The notes beneath the pieces were generated by a model. The model was given only the letters and a program-made list of their open reading frames with translations. It made no database searches and was not told the origin of the DNA. The position numbers and the translations under genes are program-made. Shown in pieces: positions 8,713 through 11,336 of a stretch of 37,798 nt of DNA; position 1 is the first letter of the stretch; each line of letters starts with the position of its first letter. This DNA comes from an uncultured Pseudoflavonifractor sp. (GTDB lineage: Bacteria > Bacillota > Clostridia > Oscillospirales > Oscillospiraceae): contig CANEAY010000017.1 in assembly GCA_947425785.1 (NCBI GenBank), forward strand, positions 1 to 37,798. Reading direction: 5' to 3'.

Positions 8713-8748
8713 AAAAAGCTCCGAAGGAAATTTCCTTCGGAGCTTTTT
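8713..8748. terminator. Bidirectional intrinsic terminator
   Basis: A perfect 18-bp inverted repeat (8713-8730 / 8731-8748) with A-run and T-run ends, located between the convergent LCP and prephenate dehydrogenase genes. It directly abuts the tyrA stop codon. Confidence 0.92.
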
Positions 8749-9606
8749 TCAATGGAGAAGGTCGGGCCCCGGCAGCTCCATCTGCCGCTTCCGGTCTGAC
8801 GACCAGGTCAGCTTCTCCACCAGCTTGTTCTTGTCCCCGGAGGCGATGGCCTCCCGGTAGTCTTGCAGGTTCTTGATAAATTCATCCAGACAGCTGGTAA
8901 GGGCGGGGGCGTTGAGGGAGAAGAGCTGGGCCCACAGGGACACATCCAGGGCCGCCACCCGGGTGCAGCCCCGGAAGGAGCTGCCCTCAAAGCCCTTGCA
9001 GGTAAAGAGCATGGGATCGTCGCAGACACTGACGGCGATAATGTGCATCATCTGGCTGGTATAGGCCAAAATGGCGTCGTGCTCGGCGGGGGTGGTCTTC
9101 ACCACGTCCTGACAGCCCATGTAGTCCGCCATGCGTTCCATGAGAGCCACATTCTCCTCCCTGCTCTCCGGCCGGGGGGTCAGGATCAAATGGGAGCCGC
9201 GGAACATCTCGCCAAAGGCGTGCTCAATGCCGGAAAACTCGGTGCCCGCCATGGGGTGGCAGCCGATGAAATCCACACTCTCCGGCAGTACCTTGGCCGC
9301 CTCCATAATGGCGGACTTGATGCCGCACACGTCGGTGACCAGGCTCCCCGGCTTAAAGTCCTCCCGGTGCTGCTCCAGGAAGGAAATGATGTCCTTGGGG
9401 TCGATGCACAGGATGGTCACGTCGGCCTGGCGAAGGGCGGAGACGGTGTCCAGGGTGGCCTCGTCCCCTACGCCGTGGGAGAGGGCGTAGTCCACCGTGG
9501 CCTGCCGCCGGGCCACGCCGATGATGCGGAAATCCTCAAAGCCCTTCAGGGCCAGGGCCAGAGAGCCGCCGATGAGACCCAGGCCCACAATGACGATCTT
9601 TTTCAT
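8749..9606 (-). CDS. tyrA: Prephenate dehydrogenase
   Basis: Oxidatively decarboxylates prephenate to 4-hydroxyphenylpyruvate, the committed step to tyrosine. The 285 residues start with a Rossmann motif, MKKIVIVGLGLIGGSLA, and contain DVCGIKSAIM and GCHPMAGTEFSG, whose His is the expected catalytic residue. A helical C-terminal domain follows, and no ACT domain is present, so feedback control is more likely on DAHP synthase or at the leader. The ATG at 9606 lies 3 nt after the aroF stop, with GAGAGG inside the aroF end as ribosome site. Co-transcription with aroF under the aromatic attenuator fits a tyrosine-supply operon. Confidence 0.93.
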   Translation of the reverse strand: MKKIVIVGLGLIGGSLALALKGFEDFRIIGVARRQATVDYALSHGVGDEATLDTVSALRQADVTILCIDPKDIISFLEQHREDFKPGSLVTDVCGIKSAIMEAAKVLPESVDFIGCHPMAGTEFSGIEHAFGEMFRGSHLILTPRPESREENVALMERMADYMGCQDVVKTTPAEHDAILAYTSQMMHIIAVSVCDDPMLFTCKGFEGSSFRGCTRVAALDVSLWAQLFSLNAPALTSCLDEFIKNLQDYREAIASGDKNKLVEKLTWSSDRKRQMELPGPDLLH

Positions 9607-9609
9607 CGC

Positions 9610-10626
9610 TCAAACCTCTCTTCCCACGCACTCCGCCACCCGGGCGGCCTTCTCCATCAGGGCCTGGAACTGCTCCGGGGTGATGGACTGCTGGCCGTCG
9701 CACAGGGCGTGGATGGGGTCGTTGTGTACTTCGATGATGAGGCCGTCGCACCCGGCGGTGATGGCCGCCAGGGCCATCCGCTCCACCATCCAGGCCTGGC
9801 CGCTGGCGTGGGAGGGATCCACCATCACGGGCAGATGGCTCTGCCGCTTCACCGCCAGCACGGCGGAGAGGTCGAGGGTGTTGCGGGTGAAGGTCTCAAA
9901 GGTGCGGATGCCCCGCTCGCAGAGGATGACGTTGGGATTGCCCCCCGCCAGGATGTACTCCGCCGACATGAGCCACTCCTCAATGGTGGAGGAGAGGCCC
10001 CGCTTCAGGAGAATGGGCTTGTTGAGCTTGCCCAGCCGCTTCAAAAGGTCAAAGTTCTGCATATTCCGGGCTCCCACCTGGATGACGTCCACGTGCTCGG
10101 CGAAGTAGTCCACGTCATCGGTATTCATGATCTCGGTGACGATGGGCAGGCCGGTGGCCATCCGGGCCTTCTCCAGCAGCTCCAGGCCGGTGTAGCCCAT
10201 GCCCTGGAAGGCGTAAGGGCTGGTGCGGGGCTTGAAGGCGCCCCCCCGGAGGGCCTGGGCGCCGCTTTCTTTCACCGAGGCGGCGATGCCGGTGATCTGC
10301 CCCTCGCTCTCCACCGAGCAAGGCCCCGCCACCACCAGCAGCTTCTTCCCGCCCACGGTGACGCCGGGGGCCACCTCCACCACCGAGTCATCGGGGTGGT
10401 ACTTCCGGTTGGCCTTCTTATAGGGCTCGCTGACCCGCATGACCCGCTCCACACCGGGCAGGGACTGCATCTTCTCAATGTCGATGTTCTGGGAGTTGCC
10501 CTCGGCGCCCAGAATGGTGGTCTCCGAACCGCGGGAGATCATCACGTTCACGCCGCAGCGTTCCATCTCCTGAATGGCGTGCTCCAACTGCGCCTTGCTG
10601 AAACCGGGTCTCATGATAACGACCAT
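9610..10626 (-). CDS. aroF: 3-deoxy-7-phosphoheptulonate (DAHP) synthase, type I-beta
   Basis: Condenses phosphoenolpyruvate and erythrose-4-phosphate, the entry step of the shikimate pathway. The frame is open 14 codons further upstream, through the leader terminator, but ATG 10626 follows GGAG at 8 nt and gives MVVIMRPGFSKAQLEHA. At 338 residues it has the length of DAHP synthases with an N-terminal ferredoxin-like regulatory domain (about 1-70). The TIM barrel follows with VAGPCSVES, RGGAFKPRTSPYAFQG, QVGARNMQNF, LLKRGL and DPSHASGQ. The N-terminal domain is known in relatives to mediate Tyr/Phe feedback. Upstream lies an aromatic leader peptide plus terminator, so both enzyme activity and transcription are probably end-product controlled. 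Confidence 0.93.
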   Translation of the reverse strand: MVVIMRPGFSKAQLEHAIQEMERCGVNVMISRGSETTILGAEGNSQNIDIEKMQSLPGVERVMRVSEPYKKANRKYHPDDSVVEVAPGVTVGGKKLLVVAGPCSVESEGQITGIAASVKESGAQALRGGAFKPRTSPYAFQGMGYTGLELLEKARMATGLPIVTEIMNTDDVDYFAEHVDVIQVGARNMQNFDLLKRLGKLNKPILLKRGLSSTIEEWLMSAEYILAGGNPNVILCERGIRTFETFTRNTLDLSAVLAVKRQSHLPVMVDPSHASGQAWMVERMALAAITAGCDGLIIEVHNDPIHALCDGQQSITPEQFQALMEKAARVAECVGREV

Positions 10627-10646: not shown

Positions 10647-10680
10647 AAAAAAACGCGGCTGCCCTCATCGGGCTGCCGCG
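10647..10680 (-). terminator. Attenuator terminator in the aroF-tyrA leader
   Basis: On the minus strand, arms 10670-10680 and 10654-10664 pair over 11 positions with one A-A mismatch around a 5-nt loop, followed by seven T's. It ends 20 nt before the aroF start, inside the 5' leader and downstream of the Tyr-rich leader peptide. This is the position expected of a transcription attenuator. Confidence 0.85.
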
Positions 10681-10690
10681 TCACCTAACA

Positions 10691-10744
10691 GGGACGGCAG
10701 GGCCGGTTCCGGGCATCACAAAAGACCGCTATCCCAATAGCGGT
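10691..10744 (-). promoter_or_regulatory. Competing leader RNA segments (pause hairpin and antiterminator)
   Basis: ACCGCTAT (10725-10732) pairs with ATAGCGGT (10737-10744) to form a hairpin over the Tyr-Arg-Tyr-Trp-Asp-Ser-Gly codons. The segment at 10726-10735 can alternatively pair with GGGACGG (10691-10697). CGGCAG (10695-10700) can pair with CTGCCG (10673-10678), the first terminator arm in RNA order. These overlapping pairings allow a ribosome stalled on aromatic codons to free an antiterminator. The sequence complementarity is seen; the switching is inference. Confidence 0.6.
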
Positions 10745-10781
10745 AAGAATAGGAATACCCGTGCCGGTCAAACTGTCTCAC
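10716..10781 (-). CDS. Aromatic leader peptide of the aroF-tyrA operon, 21 aa
   Basis: A short gene reading MRQFDRHGYSYSYRYWDSGL plus a final Leu. Four Tyr, one Trp and one Phe occur in 21 residues, with Y-S-Y-S-Y-R-Y-W consecutive. It starts at GTG 10781, preceded at 5 nt by AGGTGA (10787-10792), a good anti-Shine-Dalgarno match. A consensus promoter lies about 26 nt before the start, and an intrinsic terminator follows 35 nt after the stop, before aroF. This is the architecture of classical amino-acid biosynthetic attenuation (trpL/pheL type), here sensing mainly charged tRNA-Tyr. The function is inferred from arrangement; the peptide itself is unlikely to have another role. Confidence 0.8.
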   Translation of the reverse strand: MRQFDRHGYSYSYRYWDSGLL

Positions 10782-10806
10782 GTGGCTCACCTGCTTTCTG
10801 TGGCCT

Positions 10807-10835
10807 ACTTTAGCACTTTTTGCTACTAAAGTCAA
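10807..10835 (-). promoter_or_regulatory. Sigma-A promoter of the aroF-tyrA leader
   Basis: Minus strand TTGACT (10830-10835), a 17-nt spacer and TAAAGT (10807-10812). It places the transcript start just upstream of the leader peptide ribosome site. Confidence 0.78.
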
Positions 10836-10913: not shown

Positions 10914-11336
10914 ATGAAAATTTCCACCAAGGGCCGCTACGCCCTGCGGCTGATGCTGGACATCGCCCTTCACTGCGGCGACGGCCCTGTCTCCCTGCGG
11001 GACGCGGCAGGGCGGCAGGAGGTCTCCGACAAATACCTGGAGCAGATCGTCACCCAGCTGGGCCGAAACGGCCTGGTGCAAAGCGTCCGGGGGGCCGGGG
11101 GCGGCTACCTGCTGACCAAAGGGCCGGAGGAATACACCGTAGGAGAGATCCTCCGCTGTTTGGAGGGGAGCCTCTCCCCCGTGGACTGCGCCGAGGACGC
11201 CGGGTGCTGCGGGCGCTCCGGCCAGTGCGTCACGGTGGAGGTCTGGGACCGCATTGCCCAGGCGGTGAACCAGGTGGTGGATAACATCACCCTTGCCGAC
11301 CTGGTGAGGCGGCACCACGAAAAGTTGGGAGGATAA
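10914..11336 (+). CDS. Rrf2 family transcriptional regulator with IscR-type cysteines
   Basis: A 140-residue winged-helix regulator. MKISTKGRYALRLMLDIA and the recognition region VSDKYLEQIVTQLGRNGLVQSVRGAGGGYLL are classic for Rrf2/IscR. Cysteines at 92, 98, 99 and 105 match the spacing of the [2Fe-2S]-binding cysteines of IscR, whereas cysteine-metabolism sensors such as CymR lack them. It therefore probably senses Fe-S status or redox. The ATG follows AAGGAGGT. Unlike many clostridial relatives it is not followed by iscS/iscU but by a GNAT gene 5 nt away. Its target genes are unknown. Confidence 0.9.
   Translation: MKISTKGRYALRLMLDIALHCGDGPVSLRDAAGRQEVSDKYLEQIVTQLGRNGLVQSVRGAGGGYLLTKGPEEYTVGEILRCLEGSLSPVDCAEDAGCCGRSGQCVTVEVWDRIAQAVNQVVDNITLADLVRRHHEKLGG

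Follow-up and report, generated by a model that had tools for sequence, protein, structure and literature searches.

A probable ribosome-mediated, tyrosine-specific attenuator in the leader of an aroF-tyrA operon from the Oscillospiraceae

The interval between aroF and its promoter in an uncultured Pseudoflavonifractor sp. raises the question of whether an operon for tyrosine synthesis is controlled here by the translation of a short peptide and, if so, which amino acid that peptide would sense. In this interval the first-pass annotation of the window (the whole stretch of 37,798 nucleotides analyzed) had placed a promoter, a ribosome site, a 21-codon open reading frame (ORF), complementary segments and a terminator, and all of these were found in place when the sequence was re-read. 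The genes and the leader are as follows.

8713-8744, minus strand: hairpin with a T-run 3' of tyrA, read from the sequence
8749-9606, minus strand: tyrA, prephenate dehydrogenase (Pfam PF02153, PF20463)
9610-10626, minus strand: aroF (aroF1), DAHP synthase with an N-terminal ferredoxin-like domain (Pfam PF00793, 1.2e-79, and PF18152; NF006421)
10716-10781, minus strand: leader peptide ORF, 21 codons, GTG start, VRQFDRHGYSYSYRYWDSGLL (sequence; conserved Tyr-rich frame)
10737-10757, minus strand: Tyr codon cluster, the proposed stall sites (sequence; alignments A1/A2)
10787-10795, minus strand: Shine-Dalgarno-like AGCAGGTGA of the leader ORF (sequence; displayed upstream sequences of the relatives' ORFs)
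10807-10835, minus strand: promoter TTGACT-N17-TAAAGT of the leader/aroF-tyrA transcript (sequence; promoter scan)
10914-11336: Rrf2-family regulator gene, divergent from aroF (Pfam)

The first gene under the proposed leader control is aroF, which starts at 10626. The second and probably last is tyrA, since the hairpin with its T-run at 8713-8744 probably marks the operon end; the operon would thus consist of aroF and tyrA only. Because the upstream Rrf2 gene is divergent, the terminator ahead of aroF most simply belongs to the leader transcript. The Rrf2 product is CymR/IscR-like, yet falls under the cut-offs of those equivalogs, and such a gene was found upstream of aroF in 14 of the 16 genus genomes.

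The enterobacterial trpL and pheL attenuators combine a Shine-Dalgarno sequence, a leader ORF rich in codons for the product, a 1:2 pause hairpin and a terminator ahead of a biosynthetic operon. The logic and layout of the present locus are the same, although those leaders sense Trp or Phe. A short ORF with its own ribosome site lies between the promoter and aroF and is kept in relatives, its codons are enriched for the amino acid made by the operon (Tyr before aroF-tyrA), the regulatory codons sit in the 5' arm of a 1:2 hairpin, and an intrinsic terminator lies between the ORF and aroF. The RNA elements are listed below.

10725-10744, minus strand: inner 1:2 hairpin, ACCGCTAT-TGGG-ATAGCGGT, followed by a conserved CTTTTG (fold, alignments, terminator scan)
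10703-10767, minus strand: outer 1:2 structure (fold; covariation and swapped-arm tests)
10695-10705, minus strand: proposed antiterminator 5' strand, CGG..CTGCCG (alignment of kept pairs)
10669-10678, minus strand: proposed antiterminator 3' strand, CGGCAG.CCG, overlapping the terminator 5' arm (alignment)
10647-10681, minus strand: intrinsic terminator ACGCGGCAGCCC-GATGA-GGGCAGCCGCGT plus T7 (sequence, fold, compensation across species)

In the model that we propose, RNA polymerase would start at the promoter and transcribe the leader ORF with a ribosome loading behind it. The CTTTTG that follows the inner 1:2 hairpin appears to resemble a pause site, and hairpin and motif together may pause the polymerase and keep the two machines in step. 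With ample Tyr-tRNA the ribosome would reach the stop codon, the 1:2 structure would form and the terminator at 10681-10647 would halt transcription before aroF. Were Tyr-tRNA scarce, the ribosome would stall on the Tyr codons, which belong to the 5' arm of the 1:2 structure. The 3' arm and CGG..CTGCCG, left unpaired, could then bind CGGCAG.CC in the terminator 5' arm; this antiterminator pairing would let the polymerase proceed into aroF and tyrA.

The leader ORF runs from a GTG at 10781 to a TGA at 10718-10716 and encodes four Tyr, one Trp and one Phe, the Tyr codons being TAT (10757-10755), TAT (10751-10749), TAC (10745-10743) and TAT (10739-10737). Its frame is open upstream, where a same-frame ORF (11318-10716) runs antisense through the rrf2 gene, so that the size of 21 codons rests on the promoter and the ribosome site. 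In the window sequence alone the Tyr cluster does not reach significance (best aromatic ORF p = 0.085, 200 dinucleotide shuffles), and comparison with relatives decides.

This aroF is present in all 16 genus genomes, and an intact Tyr-rich ORF precedes it in 14 of them; 17 of 19 further related loci (L006-L024) likewise carry an intact leader, which is absent from L008 and L024. Loss of the Tyr frame beside a kept terminator, the pattern that the first-pass annotation had named as refuting its reading, was looked for in the relatives, and the outcome did not refute it: frame and terminator occur together, the exceptions being L084, with an in-frame TAG in the leader, an intact terminator and ambiguous bases in its contig, and L097 (the same sequence in L005), where leader and terminator are both lost and the promoter with its dyad (see below) lies directly before the aroF ribosome site. 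L005/L097 represents a naturally occurring form of the locus that would escape attenuation. Over 31 homologous ORFs of 20-31 codons, selected as the Tyr-rich ones and with L084 dropped, the mean number of Tyr per ORF is 5.06 in frame versus 0.10 and 0.16 in the other frames, and both Tyr codons are in use (TAT 97, TAC 60). The alignments A1 and A2 leave out L097, L003-L005, L008 and L024.

A covariance model (R1) built from 32 leaders and run on 200 family genomes matched 52 of them at E <= 0.001, with an unreliable weak end to the list, the second-best match in the source genome having E = 0.003. From the best 30 of these 52 matches, 27 loci (L128-L154) were taken, five of which repeat known leaders (one of them, L129, is genus member L095). 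Among these best matches, 21 of the 22 new loci precede aroF, each with an ORF of 3-8 Tyr, a generous count because the ORF with the most Tyr was picked automatically. With the exception of L142, tyrA was seen in all of these aroF-preceding loci. The remaining locus, L154, shows no aroF within the fetched sequence, the only such case of the 22. Three of these 21 leaders, L149, L151 and L152, have at least as many Phe as Tyr.

The outer 1:2 structure pairs CCGG (10767-10764) with CCGG (10706-10703) and GGGTAT (10760-10755) with ATGCCC (10716-10711), and the terminator consists of a stem at 10681-10653 with one A-A mismatch and a T7 run at 10653-10647 (-23.6 kcal/mol). A simple terminator scan did not list this stem and gave the 10744-10725 hairpin instead (1 found; shuffle mean 0.8). 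Across species the terminator helix is compensated, with 95.5% of alignment cells paired. On A2 (32 sequences) the 1:2 structure and the terminator together reach a covariation score of 0.175, attained by 0 of 500 shuffles and compared with at most 0.100 in slid controls, and two-sided changes occur in 13 of 29 pairs (0/500 shuffles). As one slid control (-3) gives 14 such pairs and so rivals this count, a further test was added in which the duplex energies of each leader's own arms are compared with those of arms exchanged between species. The swapped-arm tests drew on 44 leaders, 26 from the 32 of A2 and 18 from the 22 new loci, all but one of the tests being run on 43, with the terminator arms picked by eye; among the 32 folded leaders, the terminator hairpins picked for L019-L021 are doubtful. 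The 1:2 arms fit their own partner better than a swapped one (z = -3.6, p = 0.0006; negative control p = 0.39), and on these sequence comparisons the 1:2 hairpin co-evolves. The terminator gives z = -13.4, partly by construction because its arms were chosen as hairpins. For a pairing of the terminator arm with the 3' half of the ORF the result was negative (extended region p = 0.49; this part by itself p = 0.99).

These data also bear on the idea that the ORF encodes a Tyr-rich microprotein acting in trans, whose transcript the terminator merely ends. In its favor, a YRYxDSG core of the leader peptide is conserved within the genus. However, this core falls on the arms of the 1:2 hairpin, the peptides of different genera differ strongly except for Tyr, and most sequences retain TGCCC, be it translated (as CP codons) or 3' of the stop codon. 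Since TGCCC is kept in both contexts, an RNA function is indicated and conservation appears to follow the RNA; we regard the microprotein as very improbable.

The alternative pairing by which a stalled ribosome would disarm the terminator is plausible. The first-pass annotation had proposed to examine whether the alternative pairing covaries in relatives; covariation was found for the 1:2 structure and the terminator, and for the antiterminator the changes are one-sided. The core CTGCCG (10700-10695) is complementary to CGGCAG (10678-10673), and in the genus the pairs of 10700-10691 with 10678-10673 are formed in 95.6% of cells, with no two-sided change. The duplexes of individual sequences are no stronger than those of shuffles (combined Fisher p = 0.07 over all 32 leaders, 0.45 over the 17 from outside the genus), and own arms do not significantly outmatch swapped ones (p = 0.09; outside the genus 0.20). 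In folding of truncated transcripts the probability of the antiterminator within the genus is 0.74 at the best stall, 0.74 with the ribosome at the stop codon and 0.58 with no ribosome, so that by static folding there is no clean switch within the genus. A competing helix in the window, formed by GGGAU..AGCGG with CUGCCGUCCC, would hide the antiterminator strand at an early ribosome stall. We therefore take both the antiterminator and the direction in which transcription would respond from what is known of such attenuators.

A peptide attenuator could also do without a 2:3 antiterminator, termination being decided kinetically by the stalled or terminating ribosome or by the paused polymerase, or the terminator being opened by some other pairing. 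It would explain why the 2:3 pairing is the sole element that shows no covariation and why the static model fails to switch in the genus. Set against it, the extended pairing CGG..CTGCCG:CGGCAG.CC is kept in 93.3% of genus cells, corresponding changes on the two strands are present in L015 and L148 (TTGTCG with CGGCAA), and the 17 leaders outside the genus do differ between best stall and stop codon (derived means of about 0.71 and 0.37, with about 0.57 for no ribosome). We judge such a mechanism unlikely, but it is the strongest competitor of the antiterminator model. As an additional switch, pairing of the Shine-Dalgarno sequence with the antiterminator (GCAGG with CCTGC) was considered and rejected: the pairs are kept in 96% of cells with no two-sided change, a conservation attributable to the constraint on the Shine-Dalgarno sequence.

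An indication of which amino acid would be sensed comes from a second DAHP synthase (aroF2, 61% identical) in the source genome, located in the following operon.

L124 52-7540, contig C3, minus strand: aroF2-aroB-aroA-aroC-pheA-unknown-aroK-aroQ (shikimate kinase, dehydroquinase), all on one strand

In the genus the aroF2 leader is rich in Phe, typically LTTASFF..YARF.GMG. Leaders of aroF1 contain 4-7 Tyr and 0-3 Phe (n = 14) and those of aroF2 1-2 Tyr and 3-6 Phe (n = 14; the full-length copies in 16 genomes, G014 holding fragments and G015 none, with start codons chosen by hand), and the difference between Tyr and Phe separates the two groups completely (U = 196, p = 5e-6, uncorrected for kinship). 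A terminator scan of the 14 aroF2 loci found a strong hairpin in ten, a weak one in one and none in three. This contrast between paralogous operons supports, at the level of leader sequences, the first-pass view that the aroF1 leader would sense mainly tyrosine.

On a wider scale, 109 aroF loci were scored and reduced to 105 by dropping L003, L004, L005 and L074, treated as duplicates; L052, with 27 nt upstream, was dropped from the shuffle scoring of aromatic ORFs. At p <= 0.05, a short aromatic-rich ORF was found in 56 of the 105 loci versus about 5 expected, the p-values being optimistic because the loci are related. By next gene, significant ORFs were found in 29 of 43 loci with tyrA, 20 of 46 with aroB, 7 of 14 with another gene and 0 of 2 at a contig end, and Tyr outnumbers Phe in 20/29, 0/20 and 1/7 of the tyrA, aroB and other cases, respectively. 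The Clostridium-type aroF leaders L025, L026, L042 and L076 encode a long and remarkably similar peptide, about FYSFFYFxFWGFYFSAGYxF; their likeness beyond the aromatic codons could stem from RNA structure or from nascent-chain effects.

It could be argued that the leader is a general aromatic attenuator, responding to a shortage of any of Tyr, Phe or Trp. The leader in the window does hold one Phe and one Trp, L149, L151 and L152 are mixed, and among the 11 tyrA-first loci listed outside the window's clade eight are significant and none of these eight has more Tyr than Phe, so that strict Tyr dominance is confined to this clade. Within the genus, however, Trp is absent from 12 of 14 aroF1 leaders and Phe from 8 of 14, and the single Phe codon of the leader in the window precedes the 1:2 structure. 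A general aromatic response therefore seems improbable to us. In the source genome (93% complete) no match to Chorismate_bind (PF00425) was found, and this organism perhaps does not synthesize tryptophan from chorismate.

Sensing of tyrosine or tRNA-Tyr directly by a T-box or another RNA switch, with the ORF fortuitous, has to be weighed as well. The source genome has nine T-box matches at E <= 0.001, three of them above the cut-off, and in one of 20 loci scanned against Rfam (L060) aroF stands directly behind a T-box. None of the nine matches adjoins either aroF, and the reading frame is kept while its Tyr codons vary synonymously, which argues against a fortuitous ORF. A T-box or other known RNA (RF00230, Rfam) was sought in the window with no match at gathering score. 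Likewise, none of the Rfam amino acid leader families (Trp, Phe, His, Leu and Thr leaders) reached gathering score in the window. We give direct sensing by the RNA the least credence of all the readings. The T-box of L060 (2732-2965), from an Erysipelotrichaceae MAG, shows a sensing system exchanged at the same gene.

The promoter carries a second candidate layer of control.

10808-10831, no strand assigned: 24-bp dyad CTTTAGTAGC-AAAA-AGTGCTAAAG over the promoter (symmetry across loci)

The promoter is one of two promoter-like sites in the scan (shuffle mean 0.3), and a pattern search located one with equal spacing in 32 of 35 related loci. In the same number of loci a dyad of the type CTTTARYRCC-N4-AGYGCTAAAG spans the -35 to -10 region, with a mean symmetry of 6.9 of 10 versus 2.3-3.3 for slid positions, although the pattern used to pick the sites itself fixes a few of these bases. 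The source genome contains one perfect match and two with three mismatches, and the dyad is kept in L097, where the leader is gone. From its sequence, it is a probable operator of a repressor. Two assignments were considered and set aside. The Rrf2 regulator is not supported as its owner, since the dyad persists in loci with no rrf2 match upstream (L096, L097, L007 and others, some on short contigs), and the HisR consensus cacTTTAnnnnnnTAAAgtg, as given in the accessible part of PMC9413887, is spaced differently.

Among known systems, the nearest in design that we found is aroR-aroF of the actinobacterium Corynebacterium glutamicum, in which a Phe-Tyr-Phe leader precedes a DAHP synthase gene (Neshat et al. 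2014, as described in the available text of PMC11802643 and PMC4046766). Both loci thus place a leader peptide with aromatic codons before this gene, but here the genus leaders have 4-7 Tyr codons and little Phe, and tyrA is the second gene; moreover, the accessible part of the review (PMC11802643) describes attenuation at aroR-aroF as experimentally supported and Tyr availability as without effect. The same portion places E. coli aroF under TyrR control. A predicted uORF of aroF, uORFC-13-1, is reported in the available text of PMC8632094 for Acholeplasma and environmental sequences only (24 representatives). It resembles the present leader in having at least one aromatic codon and a terminator before aroF, in a prediction that is computational only, and differs in its Phe codons and its structure, a comparison made by description only. 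The first-pass annotation had called peptide attenuation textbook for Gram-negative operons; outside these it is better documented than that annotation supposed, given the His, Leu and Phe-type leaders elsewhere: the accessible parts of the respective papers describe His peptide attenuators in Firmicutes, including Eubacteriales (PMC2965389, PMC9413887), and a Leu peptide attenuator of ilv in S. aureus (PMC5794164). These are peptide-based as here, serve other amino acids and genes, and in those parts include no aromatic case. In the open-access library searched, no Tyr-sensing leader peptide came up, although Lopatovskaya et al. 2010 or Neshat et al. 2014 possibly contain a prediction.

Taken together, the sequence comparisons back a conserved ORF rich in Tyr at this position, together with its 1:2 structure, a terminator and an association with aroF-tyrA; that the ribosome stalls, that charged tRNA is sensed, that an antiterminator forms and that a shortage raises expression are inferences. 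We therefore hold with considerable confidence that a ribosome-mediated transcription attenuator sensing charged tRNA-Tyr controls aroF-tyrA, and this confidence was kept after the adverse results of re-checking because it rests mainly on the conserved frame and on the contrast between aroF1 and aroF2. On the sequence record, the element is real and conserved, and very probably a ribosome-mediated attenuator with tyrosine specificity.

A broader proposal, to which we incline with more reserve, is that the Oscillospiraceae hold a Tyr-specific class of peptide attenuators, paired within the cell with a Phe-type leader that precedes the duplicate DAHP synthase operon. The supply of each end product would then be set by its own charged tRNA and not by a TyrR-like repressor, and across Clostridia and Negativicutes aroF-type DAHP synthases would usually be controlled by peptide leaders retuned in their codons. 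Leader genes of 20-30 codons are easily overlooked by annotation, and no Rfam family reaches its cut-off here. If the reading is correct, tyrosine would join the amino acids sensed by leader peptides, and gut clostridia would split the shikimate pathway between tyrosine and phenylalanine by means of two DAHP synthases, each preceded by a leader in which the codons of its own end product abound. That a Tyr leader and a Phe leader are paired on the two copies of the DAHP synthase operon is the most interesting aspect of the finding, and would provide a natural test of how the codon content of a leader sets its specificity.
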